DNA from: a virus
DNA: 40,679 nucleotides
Reading direction: 5' to 3' (one strand)
IMG/VR virus record: IMGVR_UViG_3300027833_000101
Coordinates: 1 to 40,679 of that record
Part shown: positions 8,843-33,034 of the stretch, in pieces
Layout of the letters: every line of letters begins with the position of its first letter
Numbering within the stretch: the stretch's first letter is position 1
Translations under genes and position numbers: made by a program
Notes under the pieces: model-generated
Seen by the model: only the letters and a program-made list of their open reading frames with translations
What the model was told of the DNA's origin: nothing
Database searches by the model: none

Positions 8843-9565
8843 ATGGAAGGAAACAAAATATCAATTAAAAGAATTATAGGTAATGTTATTGGTAATTTAC
8901 AAATAAAAAATGTTAATTCTTGCATAGATGATTTTGCAAGATGGGCATTAGAAGCTGAAAACTTTATAGGAACTTCAAATAGCTATGTGCATAAAGAATG
9001 TTTAATAAAATTTAAAGGAATGAAAGCATGTATTCCTGATGATGTAATCTATATAAATGCATTAAAATACAATAATTATCAAATTGAACTTACCAATAAA
9101 AACTTCACTATGTTTGATAAAGGAGCTTCTAACGGAGGTTCTAAACACTTGGCTACTGTTTCTTCAGCTAAATTAAATACTGGCGTTACATCTCAATCTA
9201 ACGTTAATGATTTAAACAATAATGTAGTCTTCTCTATTAAAAATAGATATATATACATAAATTCAAAATCTATTGAAGAAATTGGTATTTCTTACGAAGG
9301 TATTGCTTTAGACGAAAATGGATGGCCTGAGATTTCGGAAAGCCACGAACAAGCAGTTCAACAATATTTAATGTGGCAGTATAAAGTTGCTGAGTATGTA
9401 AATGGAAAAATACCTCAACATGTTTATGCTACTCTTGAACGTAGGTGGTATGAGTTGTGTGCTCAAGCAAGAGGAGATGACGAATTACCTTCTCAATCGG
9501 AAATGGAATATTTAGGTAACATGATGAATCAGTTAATGCCTTTACCAAATAAAAAATTCTTCTAA
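8843..9565 (+). CDS. Putative tail connector/ring protein, second copy type
   Basis: A 240-residue protein with an N-terminal helical segment (IDDFARWALEAENFIGTSNS). Beta-rich middle parts include KGMKACIPDDVIYINALKYN. The C-terminal helical end reads SHEQAVQQYLMWQYKVAEYV and then LERRWYELCAQARGDDELPS. This helix-sheet-helix order, with a bulky aromatic C-terminal bundle, is the same plan as the connector gene two positions upstream, and fits the stacked neck rings of crAss-like virions. Its stop overlaps the start of the muzzle gene (TAATG at 9563-9567), implying translational coupling. The exact ring it forms cannot be told from sequence. Confidence 0.6.
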   Translation: MEGNKISIKRIIGNVIGNLQIKNVNSCIDDFARWALEAENFIGTSNSYVHKECLIKFKGMKACIPDDVIYINALKYNNYQIELTNKNFTMFDKGASNGGSKHLATVSSAKLNTGVTSQSNVNDLNNNVVFSIKNRYIYINSKSIEEIGISYEGIALDENGWPEISESHEQAVQQYLMWQYKVAEYVNGKIPQHVYATLERRWYELCAQARGDDELPSQSEMEYLGNMMNQLMPLPNKKFF

Positions 9566-12500
9566 TGACAAAAATTAGCAAAAACATATTTAGTAAGGGT
9601 CTTAGCAAAGATTACGATTCTTCAAATGTGTCTGCATATTCAATGATTGATAACATTAACGGTAGATTAATGTTTAATGATAAAGGAACTTTAGATTGGG
9701 TTGAAGATAATGGAAATAAAATTTCCTTTACTATAAGTGCTAACAACGGTACTGATCCTAATCCATACAATCCAATTGGTTATACGGGAGATGGAAACAT
9801 TAAAGTTATTTTTTCTGTTTCTACTGTAGAAACAACTCCTGGTTCTGGATTGTTTTTTTCAGAAATAGGTATAATTGGTACTGATTCTGAAGGTAATGGA
9901 ACTTATGCAACTTTGTTTAATGATTCTTCTGATCCTGACCTTTTAAATTTTAATTCTATTAATCAAATATGTGCTAGATTTTTATATGAAAATGATAAAA
10001 TAATTAGAGTGTTTTGGGTTGATGGTGTTAAAACAACAGTTCCTAAATCAAATCCACCAAGAGTTTTTACTTTTAAATTTAATAATAATTTTAATAGAAA
10101 TGTTGTCACTGCTTATACTCCTGTTAGTTCTTCGGTACATAGTATTAATAGTCAAGCGGACTTTTTTCCAGGAATAATTAAGTTTGTCCAAACTATATCA
10201 GGAAATCTTCTTACAGGTGTTTATCAATACTCATACAGGTTAATTACTATTGATGGTTATGCTACTCCTTGGATAACTCCTACAAGAAAATTCTTTGTTA
10301 CTTCTGATTCTGTAAGTAATACAAATTGGAATGTATATGAAATGGAAGGTAGTGGAGTAAATTCTGGTAAAGGAAATGAAATTCAAATAAAAGGAATTGA
10401 TCAAAGATATTACCGTATTCAAGTTGCATATTTATTTTCAGAGTCTAATGCACAAATAAAAGAATCAGGTACTTTTATTGATGTATTAATTGATAAAACT
10501 ACTGGTGGAAATATAGAATCTTTTAATCATGTTGCTAATAATGGAGTTCCTGTTGCAGTTGACGAAATTGCAGGAAGATTTCAAGGAATAGCAGGAGCTA
10601 AAACTTTAGACATAAAAGATTCTACTTTGTATTATGGTAATCTAAACGAAAATGTACTTGAAGTAACAAATGCTGAAATAGAAAATGTTTTAGCAAACCT
10701 TACTATAGTTCCTACTTTTAGAGATATGACTTCTGACACAAATTCTCTAGGTCCAAGTACTCCGCCAATAACTCATCAAAATTTATATAATAATAGCACT
10801 ATTCAAAAAAGAATGTTTTCAGGTTCTTTTGAAAATTATAATCTTAACAATGATTATTCTAATTACAAAGGAACTCAAGTTGAGAATTTGTTTACTGGTT
10901 ATTTTAGAGGAGAAACTTATAGATTTGCAATTGTTTTTTACGATAAACTAGGTTATCCATATTTTGCTTTTCATTTAGCTGATTTTAAATTTCCAGAACA
11001 ACATAGTACAGATTACACATATGAAAGATTAAAACTTGATGGAAGTGTAGTTAATGTTTCAGCATCTTTATCTCAACCTGCTTGCCCAACTAATGATTAT
11101 TTGTATGCTCCAATAACAAGTGATCCTATTGTTTTAAACGATCCTTTTCATGTTGCTAGTTATTCTCATTTAAGAATAATGGGAATTGACGTTAGTGGTA
11201 TTGACATATCGGGAATTAAAGATAAAATTAGTGGATTTTCTATAGTTCGTACTGACAGAGATGTTACAATTATTAATCAAGGTATATTGTTACCTGCTGT
11301 TATTGATGCTGATGCAGGTTCTAGAACAAATCCTCTTCCTGTTGCTCATCAAGGTTTTGCTAATGTTGGTGGTGTTCTAACATTACTTGGAGTTGTAAAT
11401 CAAAGTGGAAATAATGGATATAGAATAAGACCTAATCAATCTTTGTTTTATTCTCCTGAAAATGATTTTGATATATCTACTATTCCTGTTGTTCAAACGC
11501 CAGATAGATTAAAAATAGTAGGTTCTTGTTATAAACAAGCATCACAAGTAGGAACAGTAAGTGGTTATAATAACGGTATTCATCATACTTATGCTGATAC
11601 AAATGCTTCAAATCCTACAGATCATAGATGGAAATCTCCTCAAATAATAAGTAAATGGTATAGGTCTTTAAATCTTTATCATAATAGTATAAATGACTCT
11701 ACTATACCTCAATATGGAGCTACTGCTAGTATAGTATATCAAAAAATTCTTGGATTAGCTGAACAAGCTCCTAATTATGAACTTGGGCTTGATTTTCATA
11801 ATAGTGCTTCTTATGATACTGCTAATTGGCCAAATGTTGAAGGTTTTGGAGATAGTGGAGACCCTTATGATATGTGGGGTAAAAACACTATTTTATATAA
11901 ACATACTAATTTTGGAATATCTTCTGCTTGTAGATTTAACTACAATTCTACTTCAAATTTAAATCAAGACACTCAAGCAGGTTCTTTAATTGCAAATTAT
12001 ATAAGACCAAATTTAAACCCATATGGAGGTGTAAATCCAAGTGCTCTTCAATTGTCTACTTTTTATTCTACAGGACATTTTCAACCAGTTGGAAATCCAA
12101 CTTTTACTTCTGCTACTAACGATATTTACAATAATATAGAAGTTTATGGTGGAGATTGTTATTTAGATTATTTAGGTTTTCTAAGAATGTATGCTAGGTA
12201 TAAAAATACTGACGAAGACGTTTCTTATTCTGTTGTTTTTCCATATGAATGTATTATTAATCATTCTTTAAGGCAAGCGTCTTCTGTTCAAAATCCAATG
12301 TATACAGATGTAGGTGCAAGACCTCAAAAAGAATTTGATACACCTGGAAGTACTGCTTTTATTAACGGAATTTTTATAGCTAATAGTGGAGGTTCTAAAT
12401 TACTTGAAGAGTTTAACTATAATGATGTTCTTACGTTTAATGAACTAAATAATTTTTTTAATAGTCAACCAATCGGCTTCCAAAACAACAACGAGTTTCC

Positions 12501-13881
12501 CGTAAGATGGAGGCATACATTGAATAAATTCTACGGAGACCCAATAGATTCATGGAGACAATTTGAAATAAATAGCTTTAAAGACGTTAATGGTCAGCAT
12601 GGTCAAATAACATCTTCATCTTTTTTGTTTGGTGGAATTTATTCTTTTCAAGAAACTGCTTTTGGAAAACTTAGAACTTTTGATCGTGCAGCACTTGAAA
12701 GTGAAAACACTACATCTTTAACAACAGGTGTTGGTCCTGCTTTGGATGGAGTTGATTATATATCTAGTAAATCAGGGAATCAACATCAATGGTCTTTAGT
12801 AAACACAGGTAAAGCACTTTATTGGATAGACGTTTTCAATGGTAAGTCTATGAGGTTTGGTCAAGATGGAACAACTTATTTGTCAGACACTAATTCAATG
12901 CATACTTTTTTCCAAAAACAATCTAAGTTCTTTTTAAATAAAGATAATCCATCTAATTTAGATGGGATTCTAGGTTCTTGGGATTCTAAAAATAGAGAAG
13001 TTCTTTTTACTTTTAAAAGAGACGAATATCTTGTTAGGTCAAACATATTTGTAATAAAGTCTGATGTTTTAACTGATGTTGACTATTACGAAAATAATGA
13101 AACTGTTTTTGTTAATTGGACAGGAACTAATCTTCCTACAAGTGGTTTACATCTTCCTTCTGGAAATTCTCAAAACGGAAACAATTATAATACTTTGCAA
13201 TACGTTTCTTTAAAAGTTGGGTCTAATTCAATGTATGTTTCACAAATTAATGGTACAACAATAACAACTTTAGTTCAAATTGTAGCAGGTCAAAACTACT
13301 TATTTTCAAGACCGACAGAATTTGATAATTGGGAATTTGTTCAAATTAATAAAAGTAAAATAACTCCTTTTAGATCAACTGTTGTTTATTCGGAATACAT
13401 TTCTGCATTTACTCAATTTCATTCTTTTAAACCTAAATTTTCTATTTCTCATAATAAATTTTTATTAACACAAGACTCTGATATTACACAAAGAATTTTT
13501 TACGTTCATGGAAAAAACCCTTTAATGGCTAATTATTATGGTTTAAATTATAAAACTTCTATAGAAGTTGCTGTAAACGATGGAAGTGAATTTTCTAAAC
13601 TTTTTGATAATTTAAGAGTAGCAATAAATACTATTGGAACTACAACTATGGATAAATTTATATTTTCTACTCAAAAACAAGATAGATTTTATAATGTTCA
13701 AGGAGATGGAAGAGTTAAGTTTTTAGAAGATAATTTAAGATTACCAATAAGAAGACAAGATCAATCTGACAGAATGAGGGGAAGATTTCTAAATATGATA
13801 TTAGAGTTTGGTAACAACTCTAATAAGTCAGTAAAAATTGATAACTTCATAAATCATTATAGAGTTTCTAATAGAAAATAA
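9565..13881 (+). CDS. Giant tail protein, muzzle-type (tail-tube/stabilisation)
   Basis: A 1438-residue beta-rich protein with the size, position and start of the crAss-like muzzle protein, which forms the distal tail barrel. It opens with ISKNIFSKGLSKDYDSSNVS and a short strand-rich head. The rest is long stretches of Ser/Thr/Asn/Gly/Tyr-rich beta structure, with few Cys and no signal peptide. Recognisable blocks are SGFSIVRTDRDVTIINQGIL (about residue 550) and LYWIDVFNGKSMRFGQDGTT (about residue 1085), the latter like a propeller or barrel blade. The C-terminus (LPIRRQDQSDRMRGRFLNMI) is basic. It begins by a one-base overlap with the connector gene and ends two bases before the next gene. 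The assignment is by synteny and overall look. Confidence 0.75.
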   Translation: MTKISKNIFSKGLSKDYDSSNVSAYSMIDNINGRLMFNDKGTLDWVEDNGNKISFTISANNGTDPNPYNPIGYTGDGNIKVIFSVSTVETTPGSGLFFSEIGIIGTDSEGNGTYATLFNDSSDPDLLNFNSINQICARFLYENDKIIRVFWVDGVKTTVPKSNPPRVFTFKFNNNFNRNVVTAYTPVSSSVHSINSQADFFPGIIKFVQTISGNLLTGVYQYSYRLITIDGYATPWITPTRKFFVTSDSVSNTNWNVYEMEGSGVNSGKGNEIQIKGIDQRYYRIQVAYLFSESNAQIKESGTFIDVLIDKTTGGNIESFNHVANNGVPVAVDEIAGRFQGIAGAKTLDIKDSTLYYGNLNENVLEVTNAEIENVLANLTIVPTFRDMTSDTNSLGPSTPPITHQNLYNNSTIQKRMFSGSFENYNLNNDYSNYKGTQVENLFTGYFRGETYRFAIVFYDKLGYPYFAFHLADFKFPEQHSTDYTYERLKLDGSVVNVSASLSQPACPTNDYLYAPITSDPIVLNDPFHVASYSHLRIMGIDVSGIDISGIKDKISGFSIVRTDRDVTIINQGILLPAVIDADAGSRTNPLPVAHQGFANVGGVLTLLGVVNQSGNNGYRIRPNQSLFYSPENDFDISTIPVVQTPDRLKIVGSCYKQASQVGTVSGYNNGIHHTYADTNASNPTDHRWKSPQIISKWYRSLNLYHNSINDSTIPQYGATASIVYQKILGLAEQAPNYELGLDFHNSASYDTANWPNVEGFGDSGDPYDMWGKNTILYKHTNFGISSACRFNYNSTSNLNQDTQAGSLIANYIRPNLNPYGGVNPSALQLSTFYSTGHFQPVGNPTFTSATNDIYNNIEVYGGDCYLDYLGFLRMYARYKNTDEDVSYSVVFPYECIINHSLRQASSVQNPMYTDVGARPQKEFDTPGSTAFINGIFIANSGGSKLLEEFNYNDVLTFNELNNFFNSQPIGFQNNNEFPVRWRHTLNKFYGDPIDSWRQFEINSFKDVNGQHGQITSSSFLFGGIYSFQETAFGKLRTFDRAALESENTTSLTTGVGPALDGVDYISSKSGNQHQWSLVNTGKALYWIDVFNGKSMRFGQDGTTYLSDTNSMHTFFQKQSKFFLNKDNPSNLDGILGSWDSKNREVLFTFKRDEYLVRSNIFVIKSDVLTDVDYYENNETVFVNWTGTNLPTSGLHLPSGNSQNGNNYNTLQYVSLKVGSNSMYVSQINGTTITTLVQIVAGQNYLFSRPTEFDNWEFVQINKSKITPFRSTVVYSEYISAFTQFHSFKPKFSISHNKFLLTQDSDITQRIFYVHGKNPLMANYYGLNYKTSIEVAVNDGSEFSKLFDNLRVAINTIGTTTMDKFIFSTQKQDRFYNVQGDGRVKFLEDNLRLPIRRQDQSDRMRGRFLNMILEFGNNSNKSVKIDNFINHYRVSNRK

Positions 13882-19168: not shown

Positions 19169-22100
19169 ATGTCAGAAGAGATCGAAGAAAGGAAACAGCT
19201 TTTAATTGATAATATAAAAGAAGAAAGTAAATTATCTTCTGATTCTGATTTTTCTAATAATGAAGTTTCAGAAGAGGGGTCAGACGATCCCATGACAAAT
19301 AAAGTAAAAGAAAAACTTGGTGATTCTTTTTTAGAAAACCTTAAAACTGATCTTTCACTTTCTTCTTCATTTGAAAATCCTGGTGAAGAAAATATTTACA
19401 GAACAATAGATTATAATAAAGAAAAAGAGCAAGATGTAGAAGTTATTACAAGCCAACAAGGATTTGATCAAGGTAATACTAAAGATTTCTTGAGTGGTAT
19501 GTTTAATGAATTAGTTATAGGTAACGTAGAAGGGTTATCAAATCTTATACCTACTGTTAATAATTTATACGAAGAAAAAGACTGGGCAAATAATTGGATG
19601 GACGCTGTTAACAAATGGGGTAAATCACAAAGAGTAATTTTTTCTGATGATTTTTACAAACCAATGGATAGCATAGGAGATGTTAATCAATCTCAATTTT
19701 GGGGTGCATTAGGTAGTGGAGTTGGTTTTGTGTTAGGTATTGCAAATTGGGCAAAAGCACCTAAGTATTTTACTAAGTCTGGTAAAGCTCTTGTTAAAGC
19801 TGAAAAAATAATAAAGTCAGAAAAAATAACTGATTTTTCTATGAGGTCAGTTTTAAAAATAGGTAAACTTTTAAAAGGTGCAGGAGTTGTAAAAAGTGCT
19901 AAGCCTACTTCTCAAATTGTAAAAACTTTTAATAAAGCATGGAAAACAAACAAAGGTGCTACTGCTGTTGAACTTGCAGCAGCTACAAAAAGAATTAACG
20001 ACATAAATAAAGCATCAGCAAGTACTTTAAAATGGTCTGCTCGTGCAGGTTCTTTGTTTGGAGGAACAACAATGATGTATAATCAAATTCAACAAGATGC
20101 AATTGAATCAGGTCTTAGTCGTGAACATTCTGCTAGGTTTGCAATGTCAGTTGCTACACTTGTATCATTAACAGAAGGTATGGCTCTTGAATGGCTAGGT
20201 AAAATACCTGCAAAATCTTTTCGTAATCTTTTACTTAAAAACACAGTAAAACAAACATTAAAAACAGCTGGTTCAAAAAACTTAACTGCTTCTCAAACAG
20301 TTGGATTGTTTACTAAGAATTTTCAAAAAGCATCAGTTATAGGTGCAGGTGTTGCTGAGGGTGGTGCTGTTGAGTTTGGTCAAGAATTTGTTCAAACTTA
20401 TATTGAAGAAGGAGCTAGACAGTTATATGATGAAGTTGTTGCTGGTAATGCAAAAGCAGGTGATGGAAAATTTGGAAAAGAAGTATTTGATTCATCAGCT
20501 GATAATGTTTATGATTTTTTTGATAAAGGTAAAGACGCTGGAACTACATTTACTCAGTCATTATTTGCAGGTATGATAGGTGCTATCATTGGTAGTGGAA
20601 TGGGTGTTAACTCTGTTATTAGAAACGGTTCTGCTACTAACGAAAGAAATTTACAAAAAGAAACTCTTTATTCTTATTTATCTCAATCAATAGTTTCTAA
20701 GGACACAAAAGCTTTAGCTGATTTAGACGCTCTTATTGATGAAAACGTAGATAAAAAGAAAATAACTATAGAAGAAGGAAGAAAAGCTAAAGAAACTATT
20801 CAAACAATGTCTACTCAAATTGTTGGTTATGTTTCTGCTGGTATAACTGATAACATTGCAAGTTGGCAATTATCTACTTTAGATAACATTAATGATTCAA
20901 TTGAAAAAAGAAAGCAAGAAGCTAATGTTCCTGAAAGTGCTAACGCAGTAATAAAAAAAGATTCTAATACAAAAAAAGCATTAGTTGATCAAGTACAGAA
21001 AAACATTATTTCTTATTTTTCAGAAATCATTTCAGAAAATTCAGCAAGCGAAGTTGGTGCTAAAGATTTTCAAGATAAAATGTTAGAGTATGATTTATTA
21101 GTTGATGGTATAATGAATAAAAACATTACTGATTCTAATGAACTTAAAAATGATTTAGAATCTATATTTAAGAAAGAATCAGAAGTAGAATCTCAAGAAA
21201 ATAAAAACAAAATAATTAAATCAAAAGATAATTCAAGTCAAGTTTCTTATGAAGAAGACGGATATACATATACTCCTGAAAATATTTCATTAGCCGAAGC
21301 AACTCTTGGAATTGATGCTTCTACAGACGTAAAAGCTCAAATGGAAGAGATAGCTAATAAATTTAACGTAAGTCTTGGTGCAGTTACAGAAGCTCTTGAT
21401 AAGACAACTACAAAAGGTGTCTCTAACGCAAAAGAACAGTTTAAAAACAATAAAAGCACAACTACTACAACTGATACAACTACTACAACTGATACAACTA
21501 CTGAAGCTATTACTGAAGATGAGGTTACTGCTATGGCTGTTCCTAGAACTTTCTTTGCAGATAGAATAGCTAGAATTAAAGAAGTTATTAGTGGTAAAAG
21601 AAAAGCGGGTTATTCAGGTACTGTTGGTAATGAAATTGCTTCCCCAATGCAAGATGAGTTTAATGAAAAAGACAGTAATGATAGATTTATTAGTAGAGGG
21701 GGCTCAGACGTTTATTTAACACAAGAAGAAAAAAGTAAAATTGCGAAAATAAAGGCTGAATATAAAATAAAGAAAATTAATAGTGTACAAAGAGAAGAAG
21801 CAATTCAAGAAGTTCTAAGAGATGCTTTTAAAAGGGCTTTGGCTACATATGAAGTAGTTGAAGACGCTCCTACATTAGGAGTAAAAGAAAGAGTTGAGGC
21901 TTTTAAAGCTAAAACTGCTAAAACTACTGATACAAAAGCAAAACCTAAAGTAGATAACACAGCTGACACAAATACTGATACAAAAGCAAAGCCTAAAAGA
22001 AGTATTACTACAATAAATGATATTTCTAAAAATAACTTTTCTGAAGAAAATGATGTAGATAATCCTTTTATTGTTGCTGAAAACGCTGATGGAAATTATG

Positions 22101-25100
22101 AAGTTTCTCTTAATGAAAATGGAAATCCAACTTTTGTTTTAAATTCTCCTCAATCTTTTTTTCAAACAGGTGTGCAACAGAGTAATGAATCAAGAGGCAT
22201 GAAAGGTGCTGTTATGACTTCTCCTGCCATTGTAGATAAAAACGGGAAGGTTATACAAAATGCAAAAATTACTTTTACAGAAAAGGAAGGGTTTGAAAAT
22301 GATTTTAGCAACACAACGAAAACAACTCAAAAACCTAAAGTAGATTCTACAACTAATACAACTACTACTACAGATAATAAAACTACTAGCACAACTGATA
22401 ATTCTTCTGATACTAGTAAGGAAGAAGAAGCTCGTAAGGATAGACTAGCTAAAAGAAATAAAAAACTTTTTCCTAAAAACCTAAAAGGTAAAAATAGTTT
22501 ATCTGCTTTTGTAAGTGAAATATATGACATTACAACAAACGAAAATGGATTACCAACAGCAGTATATAAGAATAGAAAGGGAGAAATAGATGTCGTAATA
22601 ACAGGCTCTAAAAATGGTAGTTTAACAGACTTGGTAGTTTTTAAGAGAATGTATAAAAATGGAGGAATAACATCAACTAATCAATTCACCTCTAAGTTTC
22701 AGATTCAAAGCAAAGAAGCTAATTTTAAACAAATGTTAAAGGATGCTCAAGATAAGCTTCCTGAAAACCACGAGTGGGTTGAAAATAAAAGTATATCTAT
22801 AAGTGGATTGAGTGTTTTTAACAAAGCTTTAGATTTTGGATATACAACTAAGAAAGACTCTGATGGAAATGTAGTAACTAGAGACACTCCAATTAATATA
22901 GCTACAAAAGAAAATGTAGATACTATAGGAGAAGAGGCTTTTGATTCTTTTAAATCACAGTCTTTAGAAGAAGCTAATAAAAAAGCAGAAGAATCTAAAA
23001 AAGCTTTTCCTGGTATTGAAGTAGAAGTTCAAGAAACAAAACAAGGACCGCTTAAATTTTACAAAGTAATATCTAAACTACCTGTATTAGTATCAAGTGA
23101 TGCAATAGATGGTAATAATAATAATAATAATTTAAATCAAAATCAAGATGGCAAAAAAAGCAACGAAAAAGGCAACGAAAAAAACAACGAAAAAAGTAAC
23201 GAAAAAAACGAGGTACTCTTAGATGAAATAAATCCAGAATCTTCCACTATAGAATTTACTGATGAAAACAAGAATGAATTAGATAATTTATTTGATAATA
23301 TAAGCAATGAAGAAAATGTAAAAGAACAACTAGTTTCTCCTAGAACAGATCGTCAAAAAGCTTCATCAAACAGAAACTTAAATGACAAAATAAAATCTAG
23401 ATTTAAAAAGCTATTTCCTAATATACCTGTTCGTAAAATAAATCAACTTTTTGACAAATATGGTGCAGAAAGAATGGCTAATGTTACAAAAGAAGGTATT
23501 GGTATTTCTGACAATGCTTTTCAAGATTCTATTATTCATGAATATGGTCATATTTATTTAGACATGATCGCTGATTCTCAAATTGTAAAAAGAGGAGAAG
23601 AATGGATTAAAGGAACTGAATATTTTAAAGAAGCTCAAGAGTTATATCCTGACGAAAGTGAAGAGTATCAAGCTAACGAAGCGTTAAACCAAGCTATTGC
23701 TGAAGATTCTTTTTCTAAATTGGAAAAAAAATTAGATGGAAATTTAATAGAACAATTTGTTGAATTAAGTAAAAAGATTTGGAGATCTATTAAAAGAAAA
23801 TTTGTAGGAGTTAATGATAACGATTTAGTTTCTTACTTGTCTGATTCAATGATTTATGCTAGTAAGCCTTTTAATGTTAATACTTCTTATTTAGGAAATA
23901 ATACTAAAAATCAATTAACACAAGTTAGTGAGTTTACTGCTGAATTAAGTAATAAGCTGCAAAACTCTATGGCTACTCTTAAAATATTCATTATGGACAA
24001 CCCTAATATGCAGGGTAAGATTAGTGAAGAAACTTTAAAAGGTCAAATGTATTCTCAAATTGCTGATCTTCTTAATAAAAATGGAGACATATCATTAGAG
24101 GAAGGTTTAAGTCGATCTCAAAAAGCTGCTGAAGTAGTTAAACAATTAGATAAAAATGGAACTACTGGAATATTAATTACTAATGCAATAGAAAGACTTA
24201 GTAAAATTCCATTGATGAACGAAAAGGATAAGGCAGATTCTATTAGTGAAGCAATGGATGCTATAGATGGAAAAAGTAATAAAGAAGATATAAAAGGTAC
24301 TCAAAGAATAAGCACTTCAATAAAAGGAATTATGGCTTCTTTGCTTACGCCTGATGGAGAAATAATAAACCAAGACTCAGTATGGAGTTATTTAGGCTCT
24401 TTAGCTTCTGAAATATCAAATAAAAAAGATTTTGATAAAAGATTAGAAGAGGATTCAGATACAAATGATGTTGCATTTGCTATAAAATCTCTTCTTAATC
24501 ATATTAAATTATATGATTCTGCAAATAAAAATAAATCTAAAGAAAAACTAAGTCTTTTGAATTCTTTTTACACTGAAATAATGTCAATTACACCTGTAAA
24601 TTATTACTCAGTTGTTGTTGAAAATTTAAAAAATAAAGCAGGAGAAATAACAGATGGAATAAAATTAAAATTAAACAAATTAAACAAAAGTAGATTAAGC
24701 ACAAAAGCATTTAATGATCTTTTAGAAAAGATGAAGAGTAATTTTGATTCATTTAAAATAACTCTTAGTGGTGATCAAAATGTAAATTTAAAAGAGTGGT
24801 ACAAAAAGAATAGCGTAATTCAAAAAGGAGGAAGATATTTAAAGTATTCTGTTATAGAAGATTTAGATGAAGATCAAGTAATAGATCAAGTCCTTGATTA
24901 TTTAGGTATTTCAGGTGTTAATTTAAATAATCTTTATACTGCTATGAAAGATCAAGCTCCTAAAGCATTTGATACTTTGCTTGATAACAAATTTGTAGAT
25001 TTAGCCCCTAGGCAAGTAATGGCTGTTAAATTAGTTGAATATTTAGCTAATACAGATTTAGACCCTAAGTCTTCTGTTGGTTATATAACAAAAATTTATC

Positions 25101-28100
25101 AAAAATCTAATGCAGATACTGGTGTTCAAAGCATGTTTATTAACTCTTCAGGAAACAACATAAATAGCATTAGATATGGTTTCTTTTTAAATAGGCAGTT
25201 TGATATGCTTAGAAATAATAAAGAGTATGCTGATGCGTTTTTAAAAAGTCCTGTATTTAAAGGAAATTCAATTCTTAAAAGAATAATTAATAAAAAAGAA
25301 GACGCTATTGAATGGTATATACATGATGCAATTAACAATGTTATAACAGGTAAAGTTTCAGAACATTCAAATCAAAACGGTATTGATTTATTATTGAATC
25401 AATTAATAAATTTTGGAGCAACAATTGGTAATACATATGGGCAACAAGCTTATATAAACGACAGAAGTCATACAACTTTTGCTAAAGTAGATTTTATAGA
25501 TTCAAAACAAGTTGACTTTTCTATGGTAAGTCAAAAATCTAAAGAAGAATTTATATTAAATCAAGAATATAAAAAGCTACAAAATGTAAAAAATGGAGCT
25601 AAACTTCAAAAAGAATTTATTAAAACTTTTAATGAAATAAGTTATAATCAAGCTGAAATTATTGACGGAAAAATTGTTGTTAATGTTTTAACTTATGAAA
25701 AACAAAATAATGAAAATTCTTTAATAGTTAAGAAAAGAGCTGAATTAGCAAAAGAAGTTGATAGAATTAAAACAGCAATAATAGGTGCTAGTTTAGAAGA
25801 AGCTTTATTAAAAGATAGATACAAAGATAAAACTTTAAATAATTTTATAAAAGATTTTATATTTAACGACCATATAAACAGACAAATGTTAACTGACCTT
25901 TTGCAAGGACCAATGGCAAAACGTATTATAGTTAATAAAGGAGATGGTGTTTTTAAAATAGATAAACCTAATATTATAAAAAGAGCAGCAGGAATAGATT
26001 CAGGAGGAGCAAAAGTAGAATTAACAAAAAAGGTTAAATTTTTTGTTTATAAGAAAAACGACTTATTGAACAATCCAGTTTCTGATTCTTTTTCTTTTAA
26101 CGGTGCAGGCCTTTATCAAGAAGTTAGATCGTTAATGGGTAAAGCAAATCCTCAAGGTCATAACGCTAAAGATATGATTTATCAAGTAGATGAAAATGGG
26201 GATTTATTATTTGTAAAGATGAGTACTCTTAATCATGTTAAAGAAGTAGATGAAAAAGGAAACGAAATTGATTCTATTAAAGAAATGGGTGATGGATATA
26301 CAGATGTTGCTGAAATATTAGATGCTCTTGAAGCTAAATATTCTGATGAATTTCATATAAAAATTGTTGATGAGAAAACTCTTAAAGGAGAATTCATACA
26401 TGAAGAAGCAATGACTTTAGAAGAAATGTATGAAGAAGTTCAAAATGGTAATTTAGAAAAAATATCTTCTAAATCTAGTTTTGAAAAAAAGATAGTTAAT
26501 TATCAACAACCTTTTAATCTACATAACGATATATCTCAAACTGACTTAGAAGATCAAAAAGTAAGATTGGGTTCTCAAATATCTAAAATAATTCTTAATC
26601 AGTTAGCAAATAGAATAGATGGTGAAAATGGAGATATTCAGCGTTTTGAAAACTTAATGGTTGAAATTTCTAAAAAAAGAATGGGGCTTTATGGTGATGA
26701 AGACTATAATGATTCTGTTCTTTATGAAACTTTATATGGTACTGATAATTTGTTACAATCATTAGGAAACAGTACAGACCAATTAAACGATCCAGCATTA
26801 TTTACACTTATTCAAGAGGTAAGAGAAATAAATAGACAATTAGGAGAAAATCTTGATGATGCTAGAAAAAACATATTAAAATTAAACAGAAAAGGTAATT
26901 ATGAAGATTTATCAGATTCTGATCAAATTTCATATAAAGCATCAGAAGGAGTTTTAGCAGGAAAAAGAACAATTAATAAACTTGATCATCCTGATATGAT
27001 TACTAAAATTCAACAATTAATATCTTCTAAAATAAAAGAAAGGGCATTAAGAGTTGAACTATCTGGTAAATACGTACAAATGGCTCCCGATTTAGCACAT
27101 GGAACTGAATCGGCATTAGGTGCAAATGAAGTTAAAGTTCCTTGGTCTATGTTTGGTAAAACAAAAGAACAAGCATTAGCTTTTTTAGATGAAATGAAAG
27201 ATAAAGGAGGTCTTAAAACAGTTCTTGTTCGTGTTCCTGCTTCTGGTCCTGTTTCTACAATGAACGCAACTGTAGTAGGTTTTGTAGATGGTAAAAGTAA
27301 TACAGCTATTCTTCCTCATGAATTTACTTTAAAATCTGATGCTGATCACGATGGAGATAAAGTCTTTATATATAGAAATGATTTAAAAAATTCAGGAGAA
27401 GAAGGTTCTTTAAAAACAACTATTAAAAACTCAAAACAAAATGAGTTGTTTGACATGATGTATGAACTTAATGGTACTGAAGAAATAATTAGACAAAGAG
27501 ATGAAGGAGATTTAGATATTAAAGCTCTTAGCGATGCTGCTGATGATTTGCATGCACAACTTCTTAAAGAAGGTAAAGAGGGGTTAGACGTAGGCTATGA
27601 CTTCTTAACTCCTTCTGAATTGGCTAACTTAAATAGTAGACTTTCTTTTGGTTCGAATGCAGTAGGTATATTTGCAGTAGCAGGTAAACTAGCTTCTATG
27701 CTTAGTCAATCAAATGCAACTTTAGTTGAAGCTTTTACTGTTGATATAGGAAATGGAAATGTTCTTTCTTTTAATGATTTTAAAATTGACAACTTAAAAG
27801 ACATTGCAGTTTTATTACAAGCAGCACTTGATATAACTGCTGATCCTACATTACTTAAAACAGGTGTAAATGCAGTAACTGTAAATGTAGCTTCTACTAT
27901 GGCAATGTTAGGTGTAAATCCTAAAGAAATAATGAGGTTTTTAAATAACAAGTCAATAAAAAAGTTTGTTAAAAATTTAAACTCAAATGATAATGCTTTT
28001 GAAATAGACAATGATCAAGCTGTAAGACAGACTTTAAAGCAATTAATTTACGAAGCAAAAAAAGATAATTCAGAAGATCTTGAAATTCTTGAAGCTTATG

Positions 28101-29533
28101 ATAGATTATCTAAAATATCAGACTCTCTTAATTCTTTAGTTAATATTGTCCAAATGGATGGTAAAATACCTAATGATAGTGCTAAATTAAATGTTGTTAA
28201 AGAAGCGTTTGAAAAAATGTATTCTGGTAAATCGCCAATATTATTAAATAATTTTACAAGAAGACCTTTAATTAAACATTATGAAAAAGTTTTAAATTTA
28301 GTTTCTGATATTTATAAGCATCATTTTGTTATTGAATCTGAAGCTTATGCAAAACAAGTTGATAAAATAAAACCTAAAATAACTTATGCAGGTGGTACAA
28401 GTAAATATTCTTCTGAAAAAAATAGGAGAGGTGTTGATCAAACTTTTTTACATATTGCAGCACAAAAATTGCTTTCAAATGAAATGTTAGAACAAATTGA
28501 AGGAACTGTAGGTGGTGCTAAAGTTTGGGTAGATAATTTTGTTAAATCAGTAAAAACTTTTACTTTGTTTAAGAATTCATCAAAATCTACAGAACAAATG
28601 TATCAAGATTCTGAAACAGAATATTCTTATGATTTTGAAAGATATTCTAATATTACTTACAACAAAAAGAAAATAAATCTTTATGATCTTTATGAAAACT
28701 CGCCAACAGGTTGGTTGGATTTTTTAAATAGTTTAGGAGAAAATGAATCTGCTAAAATTGAAATTACTAATGCAGTAGAAGATTACATAGATTACAAATC
28801 AAGAGTTCAACCTATGATAGACGTTTCTGGAAATAATTTCATTGAAATGCTTAAAGTTAAAACTAATGATGATGATGGAACTTCAATATTGTCAGGTTCT
28901 CAAGATATTAGATTTATGACACAATCTGACAAGAAAAAAGCAAAAGAAGATTTTCCTAAATTAAGTCAAGACTTACAAGATCAATTTAAAGCTTTTCAAA
29001 TTTTAAAATACGGTTTAAGTAATAAATTAGGATCTTTGGTTTCTATAATGCCACAAGAATTTGGAGCAAGTTTACTTGAGCAAATGTCTCAAATTGGAGA
29101 AAATGCTGGCAAAACAAGTATAGAAAGTTATAATATTAATTTAAATTACATAATGGCTAATCCAGGTCTTGTTCAAGAAATGGAAATTGAGCCTTACAAT
29201 ACAAGAGTTATAGATGGAGAAACTTATTTAGTTGCTAAAAAAGAAATTGAACTTGATGGTGTTAAAATAAAAACTGACGAACCTATTCATTACAATGGAG
29301 ATGAAAAAACAGGAGATAATGGAGATAGGTTTATTAAAAGTAAATCAACACAAGAAATATATCTTCTTCGTGGTGGCGAAACTTCTAATCCTGGTAGTTT
29401 GTTAAAAATACAAACTACTTTTAGTAAAAGTGATAATCATGTTTTATATGATACCAATGCAAAATTAGTTTCAGGTGAAAATATAAAAGAACAATTAATA
29501 GAAGCTGAAGCAATAAGAAACGGTTGTAGTTAA
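19169..29533 (+). CDS. Giant ejected protein: hydrophobic N-part, zincin motif and virion RNA polymerase core (DxDGD)
   Basis: 3454 residues. Order of parts: an acidic head; Gly-rich hydrophobic segments (177-193 FWGALGSGVGFVLGIANW; 466-484 FAGMIGAIIGSGMGVNSVI) that may line a channel; a helical part; Thr/Lys-rich linkers (764-778, about 915-950, about 1050-1085); a globular part; an Asn6 and NEK-repeat linker (1316-1346); and a zincin motif, H1457EYGH1461. A double-psi barrel follows with VRVPASG (Arg2688) and DADHDGD (Asp2726, Asp2728, Asp2730), matching the metal-binding DxDGD of multisubunit-type and crAss virion RNA polymerases. The known crAss-like enzyme (phage phi14:2) is packaged, ejected and transcribes early genes. 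The polymerase-bearing part after the linker, about 2100 residues, is close to that enzyme's size, so this ORF looks like a fusion. Polymerase activity is likely, protease activity plausible, the channel role inferred. Confidence 0.8.
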   Translation: MSEEIEERKQLLIDNIKEESKLSSDSDFSNNEVSEEGSDDPMTNKVKEKLGDSFLENLKTDLSLSSSFENPGEENIYRTIDYNKEKEQDVEVITSQQGFDQGNTKDFLSGMFNELVIGNVEGLSNLIPTVNNLYEEKDWANNWMDAVNKWGKSQRVIFSDDFYKPMDSIGDVNQSQFWGALGSGVGFVLGIANWAKAPKYFTKSGKALVKAEKIIKSEKITDFSMRSVLKIGKLLKGAGVVKSAKPTSQIVKTFNKAWKTNKGATAVELAAATKRINDINKASASTLKWSARAGSLFGGTTMMYNQIQQDAIESGLSREHSARFAMSVATLVSLTEGMALEWLGKIPAKSFRNLLLKNTVKQTLKTAGSKNLTASQTVGLFTKNFQKASVIGAGVAEGGAVEFGQEFVQTYIEEGARQLYDEVVAGNAKAGDGKFGKEVFDSSADNVYDFFDKGKDAGTTFTQSLFAGMIGAIIGSGMGVNSVIRNGSATNERNLQKETLYSYLSQSIVSKDTKALADLDALIDENVDKKKITIEEGRKAKETIQTMSTQIVGYVSAGITDNIASWQLSTLDNINDSIEKRKQEANVPESANAVIKKDSNTKKALVDQVQKNIISYFSEIISENSASEVGAKDFQDKMLEYDLLVDGIMNKNITDSNELKNDLESIFKKESEVESQENKNKIIKSKDNSSQVSYEEDGYTYTPENISLAEATLGIDASTDVKAQMEEIANKFNVSLGAVTEALDKTTTKGVSNAKEQFKNNKSTTTTTDTTTTTDTTTEAITEDEVTAMAVPRTFFADRIARIKEVISGKRKAGYSGTVGNEIASPMQDEFNEKDSNDRFISRGGSDVYLTQEEKSKIAKIKAEYKIKKINSVQREEAIQEVLRDAFKRALATYEVVEDAPTLGVKERVEAFKAKTAKTTDTKAKPKVDNTADTNTDTKAKPKRSITTINDISKNNFSEENDVDNPFIVAENADGNYEVSLNENGNPTFVLNSPQSFFQTGVQQSNESRGMKGAVMTSPAIVDKNGKVIQNAKITFTEKEGFENDFSNTTKTTQKPKVDSTTNTTTTTDNKTTSTTDNSSDTSKEEEARKDRLAKRNKKLFPKNLKGKNSLSAFVSEIYDITTNENGLPTAVYKNRKGEIDVVITGSKNGSLTDLVVFKRMYKNGGITSTNQFTSKFQIQSKEANFKQMLKDAQDKLPENHEWVENKSISISGLSVFNKALDFGYTTKKDSDGNVVTRDTPINIATKENVDTIGEEAFDSFKSQSLEEANKKAEESKKAFPGIEVEVQETKQGPLKFYKVISKLPVLVSSDAIDGNNNNNNLNQNQDGKKSNEKGNEKNNEKSNEKNEVLLDEINPESSTIEFTDENKNELDNLFDNISNEENVKEQLVSPRTDRQKASSNRNLNDKIKSRFKKLFPNIPVRKINQLFDKYGAERMANVTKEGIGISDNAFQDSIIHEYGHIYLDMIADSQIVKRGEEWIKGTEYFKEAQELYPDESEEYQANEALNQAIAEDSFSKLEKKLDGNLIEQFVELSKKIWRSIKRKFVGVNDNDLVSYLSDSMIYASKPFNVNTSYLGNNTKNQLTQVSEFTAELSNKLQNSMATLKIFIMDNPNMQGKISEETLKGQMYSQIADLLNKNGDISLEEGLSRSQKAAEVVKQLDKNGTTGILITNAIERLSKIPLMNEKDKADSISEAMDAIDGKSNKEDIKGTQRISTSIKGIMASLLTPDGEIINQDSVWSYLGSLASEISNKKDFDKRLEEDSDTNDVAFAIKSLLNHIKLYDSANKNKSKEKLSLLNSFYTEIMSITPVNYYSVVVENLKNKAGEITDGIKLKLNKLNKSRLSTKAFNDLLEKMKSNFDSFKITLSGDQNVNLKEWYKKNSVIQKGGRYLKYSVIEDLDEDQVIDQVLDYLGISGVNLNNLYTAMKDQAPKAFDTLLDNKFVDLAPRQVMAVKLVEYLANTDLDPKSSVGYITKIYQKSNADTGVQSMFINSSGNNINSIRYGFFLNRQFDMLRNNKEYADAFLKSPVFKGNSILKRIINKKEDAIEWYIHDAINNVITGKVSEHSNQNGIDLLLNQLINFGATIGNTYGQQAYINDRSHTTFAKVDFIDSKQVDFSMVSQKSKEEFILNQEYKKLQNVKNGAKLQKEFIKTFNEISYNQAEIIDGKIVVNVLTYEKQNNENSLIVKKRAELAKEVDRIKTAIIGASLEEALLKDRYKDKTLNNFIKDFIFNDHINRQMLTDLLQGPMAKRIIVNKGDGVFKIDKPNIIKRAAGIDSGGAKVELTKKVKFFVYKKNDLLNNPVSDSFSFNGAGLYQEVRSLMGKANPQGHNAKDMIYQVDENGDLLFVKMSTLNHVKEVDEKGNEIDSIKEMGDGYTDVAEILDALEAKYSDEFHIKIVDEKTLKGEFIHEEAMTLEEMYEEVQNGNLEKISSKSSFEKKIVNYQQPFNLHNDISQTDLEDQKVRLGSQISKIILNQLANRIDGENGDIQRFENLMVEISKKRMGLYGDEDYNDSVLYETLYGTDNLLQSLGNSTDQLNDPALFTLIQEVREINRQLGENLDDARKNILKLNRKGNYEDLSDSDQISYKASEGVLAGKRTINKLDHPDMITKIQQLISSKIKERALRVELSGKYVQMAPDLAHGTESALGANEVKVPWSMFGKTKEQALAFLDEMKDKGGLKTVLVRVPASGPVSTMNATVVGFVDGKSNTAILPHEFTLKSDADHDGDKVFIYRNDLKNSGEEGSLKTTIKNSKQNELFDMMYELNGTEEIIRQRDEGDLDIKALSDAADDLHAQLLKEGKEGLDVGYDFLTPSELANLNSRLSFGSNAVGIFAVAGKLASMLSQSNATLVEAFTVDIGNGNVLSFNDFKIDNLKDIAVLLQAALDITADPTLLKTGVNAVTVNVASTMAMLGVNPKEIMRFLNNKSIKKFVKNLNSNDNAFEIDNDQAVRQTLKQLIYEAKKDNSEDLEILEAYDRLSKISDSLNSLVNIVQMDGKIPNDSAKLNVVKEAFEKMYSGKSPILLNNFTRRPLIKHYEKVLNLVSDIYKHHFVIESEAYAKQVDKIKPKITYAGGTSKYSSEKNRRGVDQTFLHIAAQKLLSNEMLEQIEGTVGGAKVWVDNFVKSVKTFTLFKNSSKSTEQMYQDSETEYSYDFERYSNITYNKKKINLYDLYENSPTGWLDFLNSLGENESAKIEITNAVEDYIDYKSRVQPMIDVSGNNFIEMLKVKTNDDDGTSILSGSQDIRFMTQSDKKKAKEDFPKLSQDLQDQFKAFQILKYGLSNKLGSLVSIMPQEFGASLLEQMSQIGENAGKTSIESYNINLNYIMANPGLVQEMEIEPYNTRVIDGETYLVAKKEIELDGVKIKTDEPIHYNGDEKTGDNGDRFIKSKSTQEIYLLRGGETSNPGSLLKIQTTFSKSDNHVLYDTNAKLVSGENIKEQLIEAEAIRNGCS
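21458..21502 (+). repeat. 18-bp direct repeat encoding Thr-rich linker
   Basis: Two exact 18-base units (ACAACTACTACAACTGAT at 21458-21475 and 21476-21493) are followed by half a unit. They encode TTTTTD twice in the giant cargo protein. Similar Thr-Asp coding runs recur around 21910-22000 and 22320-22400. They form flexible connections between the helical N-terminal part and the next globular part. Confidence 0.85.
23114..23206 (+). repeat. Low-complexity junction: (AAT)6 and four 12-bp NEK repeats
   Basis: Six AAT codons (23114-23131, Asn6) are followed at 23159-23206 by four 12-base units of the form N-Asn-Glu-Lys (SNEK, GNEK, NNEK, SNEK). A-runs lie at 23153-23159 and 23202-23208 (seven A each). 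The stretch separates the N-terminal cargo part from the zincin and polymerase part of the giant ORF. In the other + frame the same bases encode a Lys/Ala/Thr-rich repeat with its own ATG, which suggests a former gene start or a slippage zone. Confidence 0.8.
23148..23222 (+). other. Nested lysine-rich micro-ORF in another frame of the giant gene
   Basis: ATG at 23148, 24 codons, stop TAG at 23220-23222. The peptide starts MAKK and continues KKATKKATKKTTKK, like lysine-rich histone-H1-type tails. It overlaps the NEK repeats. It could be a relic of the start of a separate polymerase gene, the C-terminal tail of a truncated product made by slippage on the A7 run at 23153-23159, or chance created by the 12-base repeat. 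An A-rich or AAT-rich lead like that of real starts precedes it. There is no evidence that it is translated. Confidence 0.35.
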
Positions 29534-29554: not shown

Positions 29555-32500
29555 ATGAGTTGTCCTATAAAATCTAATAAAGATTGGAAAGCACTTGTTG
29601 CTAAGGTTGGTGAGCAAAAAGCGTATTTAGAATATGTTAAGAATGGAAATCAAGTTCCTGCTTCAAAAACAGTAAAAAGAGAAATTAATAAAGGAATAGG
29701 AAACAATATTGAATTTAGCAATCCTGTTACAACTTCTTTAATTAATGAATACCCTAGTTTAGCTAAAGAAATTATTGACGATTTAGTTACTTTATTTCCT
29801 GATGTTGTATTTAGCAAAGAAGGTATTATAGATAAAAATGGAAAGTTTGTAGAAATAGAAGCTGGAAAACAAGGAATGCATTATAGAAATGCTTTTATAT
29901 CTATGGTTTCTTGGGCAAATGATTCTTTTTTAGAAACTCCTCCACATGAATATGCTCATCATTATATTGACATGTTTAGAAATCATCCTTTAGTTGCTAT
30001 AGCGATAGAAAAATATGGCGAGGAAAAATTGGTAGAGAAAATATCAAAAAGATACACTAAAGAATACACTTCTCCTGCTTTTTCAAAATGGGTTAATAAG
30101 TTTTGGACTATGACTAGAAGTTTATTTGGAATTGAAAGTATTAATGATAAAATATATAAAGCTTTTAAAGAAAATAAAAAACTAAGTAAAGACGAATACA
30201 AAGGAACAGCTACTGTAAGGTTTCAGGATAAACCTAAAATAATGAATAAAAAATCACAAGCAGATATAAGTAAACAATCCAATATTAAAAGATTAGTAAA
30301 AAATGTTTTAACAATAAGTGATGAAGCAGGATTAAATTCTTTTAAAAAGTTTTTTAAAAAAATACAATCAACAGAAGACAGTCCAAATAAAACAGATAAA
30401 ATAAGAAATTTCTTTCTAGATAAAATAGAAATTTTAAAGGAAACTGATTTAGATGACAAAAAAAAATATATGGATTTGTCTGAATTAGATTCATATGATT
30501 TAAACCTTTTTAAAGACAATCTTACAAACGATCAAACAGGTTTTCAATATTCTAATTATTTTGCTTTAAAATTATCAGGTGCTTCTGATACTTCAATATT
30601 TATTGATGATTTTTTTAAAGCTATAAATTCTAGTACTATTAAAGATTTTCAAAATAAATATGAAATAGACTCAAAACTTTATTTTAATATTCATAAAAGA
30701 ATAGAGTATAATAAACAACAAAAAGAGAATCTTTTGCTTGATGATGGAAAACTTGTTTCTGTTTCTGCTGTTGAAAAAGAGGTTTTAAATGATATTGATG
30801 AAGCATCTAAAAACAGAAAAAGAAGATATAATAAAGGATTGTTAAGTATTAATTCTTTAGAGAATATTTTTAGACTTGTTACTAAAGGAGTTAATGTTTA
30901 TTTAATGAGTCCAAGGCTTAAAGCCAAATTAATTACAGGTAAGAATTTAAGTTTATTGCAAAAAATAACTTACGATTCTTTTAATGAAGCTTTAAATAAG
31001 CAAAATAAAATTTTACAGAATTTTTATGAGAAATTTCAAACTAAAAAACTAAGCAATAAAATTAAATCTAGATCTTTTCATTTTAGTAAAAAAACTAAAA
31101 TAGATGAATTTAAAGGAACTTACGAAATAAAACAAGAAGGAAGAAAATTTAAAATAACAGAAGCTGAAATTCTTAATATATATTTTTTAGCAAGGAATGA
31201 TTATAGATCATTAATTGAAAGTGGTGTTTATTTAGAGGATGATATTGAAGGTAGAAAATATGATAAAACCATAAAAATAACTGATCAGATTATAAAAGAT
31301 ATTGAAGAAATTGTAAACAATAGCAATGAATTGTCTGAAGTAATTACTAAAATAGATAATGGTATTAAAGTTATTTTTGATGCTAGACAAGAAAATCATA
31401 AAAAAGTAAATCCAGGATTTGAAATAGAAGAAAAGGATAATTACTTTCCTTCTCCAAGGAGAATGAGTACTAATACAAGTTCTAAACCTTCTATTCAAAA
31501 TTTCAGAAGTTTAAATTCAAATAATTCTTCTAAAAAAAGACCAGGAAGTACAAAGCCATATTTAGTTAGAGATGTTTTTAGAATAATGGATAATATGGCA
31601 AGAAACGAATCTTTTAATGCTAGTTTTGAAATTCCTATTAGAAACGCTAAACTTTTATTAGATAAACTAATAACAACTACAAATAGACAAAACGTAAAAG
31701 ATTCTGGATTAATTAATAAAACACTTGATGGTTTAAAAGAAAATGTTACAAGAATACAAGACAATACTGAAAAAACTTATGGAAAAAATGAAAGTCAATT
31801 TTTGCAATTTCTTAAAAGAAAAAGGTCTAATTTTGTTGCTTATGTTTTAGGTCATGGAATTCCTGTACTTTTTAAACAACCTGTTTCTTTACTTGCTGCT
31901 GCGACTGTAATAGATCCTAAGTTTTTATCAGATTCAATGCTTAATAAGGTTATTCCTAAGACAAGTTCTGTATTTGAAGCTTATAAAGAATCATTAGGTA
32001 AACTTGAATTTTCTCCTCCAAATAAAGGTCATACTGTATTTCCTTTTGAATGGGTTTCTGATCCTGATGAAGAAACTTCTAAAGAAATGGAAGCGTGGAG
32101 TCCAACTTTATTTCTTAGAACAAGTGGAACTCAAGATTTTTCTATTGAAATGAATGAAGCTACTTCAGAAGCAGGAGATAATAATGATTTTACAGATTTA
32201 AAACTTTTTGGTGTTGGTAAGTATTTAAAAAACATAATTAGAGGTAAAAATGAAAACTCTGGATCAGAAAATCTTCGTGTTTCAAAATCTAGAGGAATGC
32301 AGGGTATTAGAGTTTTTGATACAACTACAATAAAAAAGATATGGAGAGGTGCAAAACGAGAAGCTAAAGAAGTTTACGGTATTACAGAACAAGATGGTGC
32401 TATTTTTTGGGAACACGTTGCTGCAAGATCAGAACAAATAACTAATGAAACTCAACCTACTTACGACCTTAACAATAGATCAGGACTTTCTGCTATGGGT

Positions 32501-33034
32501 TCAAAAAATGAAACCATTAAAACTTTAACTATGTTTTCTTCTGCAAGAGAGAAAATGCCTAATATGATGATGGAGAGAATGATTGAATATGTTAATGAAC
32601 CTAATGACGTAAATAAACGTAAATTAACAAGAACTGTAGCTACAGTTAGTATTGGCGTTGCTCTTTTTCAAGCTTCTATACAAGAAATCTTCAACAGTCT
32701 TAATGGTTGGCTTGATGATGATGATGAACCCGAATTAGATGAAATTCCAGAAAGTATTGCTTTAGAAATGTTAAGAAATAATTTAGGAAATATTCATGGT
32801 GCTGGTACTGCGGGTAACGGTATTGTTTCATATTTAGATAATGAACCTTGGCATCAGACAACACAATATCCTGTATTTCAATTATTGGATAATATGGAAA
32901 AAACAGCAGCTTATGGACTTAAATCAGATCCTAAAGTTTTTGAAAGTATGGTTAAATATGGATTAATGTATAAAGGAATTCCTGGGGGAAGTTATAAAGT
33001 AGTTTCTCAGGTTATTAAGAAGATTGCTGAATAA
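29555..33034 (+). CDS. Large ejected protein with N-terminal zincin motif
   Basis: 1159 residues. It opens with a compact helical segment (CPIKSNKDWKALVAKVGEQK, then YLEYVKNGNQVP). A zinc-protease motif follows, H131EYAHH136, in the context LETPPHEYAHHYIDMFRNHP, with candidate downstream acidic ligands around EKYGEEKLVEKI. The long middle is Lys/Glu/Asn-rich helix. A later stretch, GHGIPVLFKQPVSLLAAATV (about residue 767), is of the kind seen in large polyvalent ejected proteins. Near the C-terminus there is a mildly hydrophobic helix (VATVSIGVALFQASIQEIFN) before an acidic DDDDEPE patch. It starts 21 bases after the giant polymerase-bearing gene and ends the cargo block. Protease activity is plausible but untested. 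Confidence 0.65.
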   Translation: MSCPIKSNKDWKALVAKVGEQKAYLEYVKNGNQVPASKTVKREINKGIGNNIEFSNPVTTSLINEYPSLAKEIIDDLVTLFPDVVFSKEGIIDKNGKFVEIEAGKQGMHYRNAFISMVSWANDSFLETPPHEYAHHYIDMFRNHPLVAIAIEKYGEEKLVEKISKRYTKEYTSPAFSKWVNKFWTMTRSLFGIESINDKIYKAFKENKKLSKDEYKGTATVRFQDKPKIMNKKSQADISKQSNIKRLVKNVLTISDEAGLNSFKKFFKKIQSTEDSPNKTDKIRNFFLDKIEILKETDLDDKKKYMDLSELDSYDLNLFKDNLTNDQTGFQYSNYFALKLSGASDTSIFIDDFFKAINSSTIKDFQNKYEIDSKLYFNIHKRIEYNKQQKENLLLDDGKLVSVSAVEKEVLNDIDEASKNRKRRYNKGLLSINSLENIFRLVTKGVNVYLMSPRLKAKLITGKNLSLLQKITYDSFNEALNKQNKILQNFYEKFQTKKLSNKIKSRSFHFSKKTKIDEFKGTYEIKQEGRKFKITEAEILNIYFLARNDYRSLIESGVYLEDDIEGRKYDKTIKITDQIIKDIEEIVNNSNELSEVITKIDNGIKVIFDARQENHKKVNPGFEIEEKDNYFPSPRRMSTNTSSKPSIQNFRSLNSNNSSKKRPGSTKPYLVRDVFRIMDNMARNESFNASFEIPIRNAKLLLDKLITTTNRQNVKDSGLINKTLDGLKENVTRIQDNTEKTYGKNESQFLQFLKRKRSNFVAYVLGHGIPVLFKQPVSLLAAATVIDPKFLSDSMLNKVIPKTSSVFEAYKESLGKLEFSPPNKGHTVFPFEWVSDPDEETSKEMEAWSPTLFLRTSGTQDFSIEMNEATSEAGDNNDFTDLKLFGVGKYLKNIIRGKNENSGSENLRVSKSRGMQGIRVFDTTTIKKIWRGAKREAKEVYGITEQDGAIFWEHVAARSEQITNETQPTYDLNNRSGLSAMGSKNETIKTLTMFSSAREKMPNMMMERMIEYVNEPNDVNKRKLTRTVATVSIGVALFQASIQEIFNSLNGWLDDDDEPELDEIPESIALEMLRNNLGNIHGAGTAGNGIVSYLDNEPWHQTTQYPVFQLLDNMEKTAAYGLKSDPKVFESMVKYGLMYKGIPGGSYKVVSQVIKKIAE

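Follow-up and report, generated by a model that had tools for sequence, protein, structure and literature searches.

A 3454-residue open reading frame in a divergent crAss-like phage contig probably encodes a fused virion RNA polymerase

Gene content of the locus

The stretch of DNA analysed here (the window) spans the 40,679 bases of the IMG/VR virus record IMGVR_UViG_3300027833_000101, and the features located in it are listed in Table 1. A structural block with genes for the major capsid protein, terminase large subunit (TerL), portal, tail stabilization (muzzle) and tail tubular/ring proteins, together with an IHF gene, is the signature of crAss-like phages (PMC7886860). In the window Crass_capsid, crAss_MUZ, CrAss_Ring_1 and CrAss_Ring_2 were found above the Pfam cut-offs, and TerL and the portal by phmmer. 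The portal matches in named phages fall in Crassvirales and in the Fipvunavirus group of Flavobacterium psychrophilum, with identity below 30 % among the matches listed. The short ORF between the two ring genes gave no family or phmmer match. With the TerL end, portal, capsid, rings and muzzle in the crAss order, followed by a block of large ORFs, the window is, as judged from its genes, a piece of a crAss-like genome.

Two further genes were noted outside the features of the table. Residues 83-199 of an 855-aa ORF at 14844-17411 match the PHROG baseplate hub family phrog_196 (E=6e-23), and the product may be a cargo protein that includes a domain for cutting cell walls. An endolysin-like gene at 36813-37631 has a PG_binding_1 match (E=1.6e-10) and a weak CHAP match.

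Table 1 Features of the window and of the giant ORF
Feature	Position	Strand	Evidence or remark
Terminase large subunit, C-terminal end, cut by the contig start	2..679	+	phmmer to cr118_1 TerL, E=3e-19
Portal protein	685..2913	+	phrog_6547, E=8e-86; tblastn to Crassvirales and Fipvunavirus portals
Major capsid protein	4068..5438	+	Pfam PF23898 Crass_capsid, E=5e-49
Tail ring protein 2	7694..8392	+	Pfam PF25702 CrAss_Ring_2, E=1e-25
ORF of 159 aa between rings 2 and 1	8361..8840		place of the IHF gene in phi14:2
Tail ring protein 1	8843..9565	+	Pfam PF24228 CrAss_Ring_1, E=3e-36
Muzzle (stabilization) protein	9565..13881	+	Pfam PF25731 crAss_MUZ, E=2e-92
Giant ORF	19169..29533	+	3454 aa; ATG start, open for 3454 codons
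N-terminal part, about residues 1-680	19169..21208	+	blastp 34-39 % to L002/L003; kept in relatives
Low-complexity linker, about residues 681-1387	21209..23329	+	translated runs rich in T/D, K/E and N
Zincin-like metalloprotease-type domain, about residues 1388-1783	23330..24517	+	HEYGH 1457-1461 = bases 23537-23551
Two-barrel RNA polymerase core as modelled, residues 2130-2960	25556..28048	+	AlphaFold2 and structural matches
Upstream half of the core, residues 2236-2622	25874..27034	+	structural alignment with 6VR4 and, from model residue 107 on, with QDE-1
Beta'-type barrel DPBB-A, residues 2628-2736	27050..27376	+	structural alignment; hhalign E=6.1e-21 over the region
R2688-V-P2690 of the RxP element	27230..27238	+	R and P invariant in 67 cores
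DADHDGD, residues 2724-2730, putative Mg-binding triad D2726/D2728/D2730	27338..27358	+	
Helical region after DPBB-A, residues 2737-2925	27377..27943	+	profile match continues through; model helices
Next ORF, 1159 aa, zincin-like HEYAH (bases 29945-29959)	29555..33034	+	order conserved in relatives

In the giant ORF a single-chain two-barrel RNA polymerase is fused behind an RNAP-associated part and a zincin-like domain. Other crAss-like phages have an upstream virion protein that is RNAP-associated, and the N-terminal part of the ORF is its likely counterpart. In profile comparisons the upstream half of the ORF matched Intestiviridae gp45-type proteins (E=4.7e-8) and the N part of the fused Suoliviridae ORFs (E=1e-6), and the layout of the ORF is therefore that of the Suoliviridae fusion, at a rather short length; the match of its C-terminal region to crAss-like counterparts was weak. 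The 1159-aa ORF that follows is a likely positional counterpart of the third protein of the RNAP block, in the place of phi14:2 gp65, and its profile relation to gp65-type proteins is weak. Profile comparison relates its HEYAH domain to that of the polymerase ORF with HEYGH (E=1.7e-10), so that the block carries two related zincin-like domains close together.

Relatives of the giant ORF were sought in viral contigs and in cellular genomes. A peptide scan of viral contigs with a long query recovered none, and shorter, motif-centred queries recovered several. The IMG/VR scans yielded homologous ORFs in L002 (3472 aa), L003 (3360 aa), L025/L026, L027, L028/L029, L032, L036 and L039, with lengths of 2980-3472 aa in L002, L003, L025-L029 and L039. 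Wherever the flanks are present the gene order is the same: an ORF of 515-560 aa, the giant ORF, and an ORF of about 1100-1200 aa. An HExxH lies at the corresponding place upstream of the polymerase in all relatives found, and a second occurs in the next ORF wherever that ORF is present. By blastp, the blocks conserved between the window, L002 and L003 are the N-terminal part, the HExxH part and the polymerase, with low-complexity linkers between them; no blastp segment joins the window ORF to L002 or L003 in the linker at about residues 681-1387. Two scans of bacterial and archaeal genomes returned no relative of the window polymerase and hence no host link. The L002 ORF (2522-12940) has a long insertion after DPBB-A, roughly at residues 2600-2790, which the other members lack; by eye, part of it (FGSGIYLTSNEEYA) resembles an ADP-ribosyltransferase-type segment.

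The DADHDGD motif and its conservation

The first-pass annotation had placed DADHDGD and an upstream VRVPASG with R2688 in the ORF, and the translation confirmed both at the positions of Table 1. DADHDGD by itself is weak evidence. In composition-matched shuffles of the ORF, DxDxD occurred in 69 %, DxDGD in 7 % and ADxDGD in 0.5 % (98 of 20,000). The motif is beyond chance because the homologous ORFs of 2.98-3.47 kaa read [SA]DAD[HN]DGDK at the same place in every relative found. When 67 polymerase cores were aligned, no residues but R2688, P2690, D2726, D2728 and D2730 proved fully invariant. The DxDxD metal triad of the beta'-type barrel serves as a criterion for crAss-like virion RNA polymerases (PMC7886860), and its three Asp are present in the window ORF.

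DxDGD with a bulky x is found in cellular RNAPs (PMC7598289). The annotation had ascribed DbDGD, with b a bulky residue, to crAss-like polymerases as well, and this part of its account did not hold for the members checked: in 14 named Crassvirales enzymes, collected by homology and not by motif, the sequence is DFD[IV]D or DLDVD, and in gp32 of the Flavobacterium phage FpV4 it is DYDID. In the window clade, DHDGD or DNDGD combines an unusual x with the Gly of the cellular enzymes. Among the crAss-like enzymes checked, DHDGD is thus the exception, cell-like at Gly. The statement of motif frequency is based on the tblastn-derived set of crAss-like polymerases, and 80 IMG/VR crAss-like loci fetched by the pattern G[SA]D[FL]D[VI]D[KS] were left out of it. 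A literature search for DFDID or a zincin in crAss-like phages found nothing.

Relation to Crassvirales polymerases and predicted fold

The window polymerase is recognised by no Pfam, PHROG or NCBIfam model. Single-sequence searches with it were unproductive in PDB, Pfam, PHROGs and NCBIfam, and tblastn in phages gave only marginal matches. The phi14:2 gp66 and cr111_1 polymerases are likewise missed by Pfam and PHROGs. The relation emerged from the profile-profile search that the annotation had proposed, in which the clade core (8 sequences) aligned with 14 Crassvirales virion RNA polymerase cores over 340 columns with the DxDxD motifs in register (hhalign E=6.1e-21, 99.3 % probability), and the controls, a reversed profile and eight column-shuffled profiles, gave E values of 0.2-1. 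The clade profile also matched the cr111_1 RNAP (E=8e-7) and phi14:2 gp66 (E=0.012 and 8e-4), and L003 matched the cr8_1 polymerase by tblastn (E=2e-6). Direct profile alignment of the DPBB-B sub-region alone was not significant. In a polymerase-core tree built without a usable outgroup, the 8-member clade of the window is monophyletic (support 0.999) on a long stem.

A first AlphaFold2 model, made from six clade sequences with no Crassvirales sequence among them, had a pLDDT of 56 and low quality near the motif; even so, a single PDB entry matched it significantly, the virion polymerase of phi14:2, 6VR4 (E=9e-5, the next being 0.57). A deeper alignment was built because of this poor region, and the model from its 67 sequences (residues 2130-2960) reached a pLDDT of 80.7 and a pTM of 0.77. 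The best match of the deeper model was again 6VR4 (E=4.7e-11, Z 15.7, 692 residues, 4.8 A), a likeness that is not independent of the homology claim because the alignment includes 58 crAss-like cores. QDE-1 (Z 14.4), RDR2 (Z 12.4) and P74-26 gp62 (Z 11.0) were matched as well, and over DPBB-A many cellular RNAPs at Z of about 9. The model aligns to residues 711-1686 of 6VR4 along its whole length, to residues 645-1140 of QDE-1, and from model residue 499 onwards to DPBB-A of the E. coli, Pol II, AR9 and phiKZ RNAPs. Among the viral models of BFVD, crAss-like phages top the matches, with cr118_1 first.

The structure prediction called for by the annotation thus puts a two-barrel fold around the motif, with 6VR4 and then QDE-1 as the best matches, and the model indicates that a single chain holds two double-psi barrels. 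DPBB-B, the beta-type barrel and the first of the two, is expected within residues 2236-2622. In this upstream half of the core K2271, K2287, K2334, K2350 and K2406 are conserved, with no residue-by-residue match to the catalytic pair. Residues 2737-2925 would correspond by position to the bridge helix and trigger loop.

Interpretation and comparison with known systems

The ORF very probably encodes the DNA-dependent RNA polymerase of a divergent crAss-like phage, made as one fused chain that would be active in transcription and packaged in the virion. Profile homology, the fold match and genome context support the beta'-type double-psi barrel and the kinship with crAss-like virion polymerases that the annotation had claimed, and we infer from the family and from synteny that the enzyme is a virion one. 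The chain would run from the RNAP-associated part through the zincin-like domain and the beta-type barrel to the beta'-type barrel with DADHDGD. In the proposed mechanism the catalytic Mg ions would be bound by the triad D2726, D2728 and D2730. R2688 would take the part that the RxP arginine has in other RNAPs, contact with the incoming nucleotide. The virions of phi14:2 and phi-crAss001 contain their RNAP-block proteins, which are believed to go through the tail in a partly unfolded state (PMC10172136, PMC7886860). By analogy with these two phages the protein would be stored in the capsid; the polymerase might then be ejected, partly unfolded, through the tail together with the DNA, refold in the cell and transcribe early genes of the phage independently of the host polymerase.

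A two-barrel polymerase could also be made in the cell and left out of the particle, like the phiKZ nvRNAP or P23-45 gp64, and the Gly of the motif does resemble that of non-crAss enzymes such as cellular RNAPs. This reading is unlikely, as the gene stands in the virion block after the muzzle and cargo-like genes, is fused to a part of the RNAP-associated type, and occupies the same place as phi14:2 gp65-gp67 and the phi-crAss001 RNAP-block proteins, all of which are in virions (PMC10172136). Fast divergence and the long stem branch in the core tree would suit an ejection protein that keeps the RNAP fold in a structural role and no longer transcribes. Such a degenerate protein is more improbable still, since no relative shows a change at the three Asp, at the Arg and Pro of RxP or at the following Lys, in a core that is otherwise about 30 % identical.

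The giant virion RNA polymerase of the N4 type (T7-like) is also about 3500 aa long, and this similarity in length is all that speaks for it; with no RNA polymerase family match in Pfam or PHROGs, and with homology and fold both indicating two-barrel enzymes, its chance is very slight. The frequency of DxDxD in shuffled ORFs would fit a chance motif in a large unrelated virion protein, a reading with negligible probability that is contradicted by the conservation in all relatives, by the profile match with its clean controls and by the fold match.

Within the preferred reading, that of a fused crAss-like virion polymerase, a more tentative proposal can be made, which we regard as doubtful: the clade may be a deep branch that kept the cellular-type DxDGD, the Gly having changed to Ile or Val in other crAss-like phages, and the zincin-like domain within the chain could cut the fusion during ejection and free the polymerase. 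If true, the deep branch would connect the single-chain enzymes of phages with cellular RNAPs at the level of sequence. What the analysis gives directly is the homology, the predicted fold, the invariant active-site residues and the gene context; we infer catalysis, packaging, ejection and early transcription, and any cutting of the chain by the zincin-like domain.

The kind of enzyme is already known; what is new is a divergent lineage with the cell-like DGD in place of D[IV]D. The crAss-like virion polymerases are thereby extended to a lineage that is uncultured and hardly visible to sequence searches against known phages. The catalytic motif of the family, with DHDGD and DNDGD besides DFD[IV]D, is more variable than its named members suggest, and the clade offers a natural comparison for the role of the residue between the second and third Asp. 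Giant virion ORFs of this kind remain unlabelled because the standard family libraries that were searched lack them. One more distant ORF of 3285 aa (L009:5600-15454) has GADVDGDKV and an RVP element and matches the clade profile with E=5.5e-5; its neighbouring genes have no crAss-like match, and it may represent a further group of phages in which a giant ORF includes a two-barrel RNAP.

Among known systems, phi14:2 gp66 (6VR4) shares with the window the single-chain two-barrel core, DxDxD, RxP, the helices after DPBB-A and the place in the virion block, at about 16 % identity over the structural alignment; it differs in being a separate protein of 2180 aa with DFDID, the window having DHDGD in a 3454-aa fusion. 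The annotation had correctly described the ORF as longer than the phi14:2 enzyme, but its length is not exceptional: other crAss-like phages often join the polymerase to further virion parts, in ORFs of 4070-4946 aa, and beside these 3454 aa is ordinary. In Steigviridae the parts are separate proteins (phi14:2 gp67, gp66 and gp65). In Suoliviridae the upstream part is fused to the polymerase in ORFs of 4502-4946 aa, and in Intestiviridae the RNAP-associated protein is fused to a zincin protease and the polymerase to the downstream part (4070-4422 aa). The Suoliviridae ORFs (cr118_1, 4946 aa; cr55_1, 4551 aa; cr125_1, 4502 aa) resemble the window in that a single ORF holds the upstream part, HExxH and the polymerase and another large ORF comes after it, and cr118_1 is also the best BFVD match; unlike the window they have the motif DFD[IV]D, an HExxH in the context YHEAFH and about 1000-1500 aa of additional length. 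Carjivirus communis (Intestiviridae) has, as annotated, an RNAP-associated and zincin protease protein (gp45) and a fused polymerase ORF of 4070 aa (gp44), with a protein break before the polymerase, which is instead fused downstream, and the motif DFDVD.

The cultured Flavobacterium phage FpV4 (Fipvunavirus), whose capsid and portal are related to those of the window, has in gp32 a 4287-aa virion protein with a crAss-type polymerase core that matches the Crassvirales polymerase profile with E=4e-31, but its motif differs and its match to the window clade is marginal (E=0.006). In this F. psychrophilum phage gp32 (L040:33880-46743) is annotated just as a virion structural protein, and its motif lies at residue 3116. 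The RNA-silencing polymerases QDE-1 and RDR2 share the two-barrel single-chain core and are eukaryotic RNAi enzymes without fused virion parts. In P23-45 gp96, likewise a giant virion protein, a metallopeptidase domain accompanies the fused virion RNA polymerase, which has DFDGD (PMC10770324), but gp96 is a siphovirus tape measure fusion with the polymerase at the N end and is not the closest fold match.
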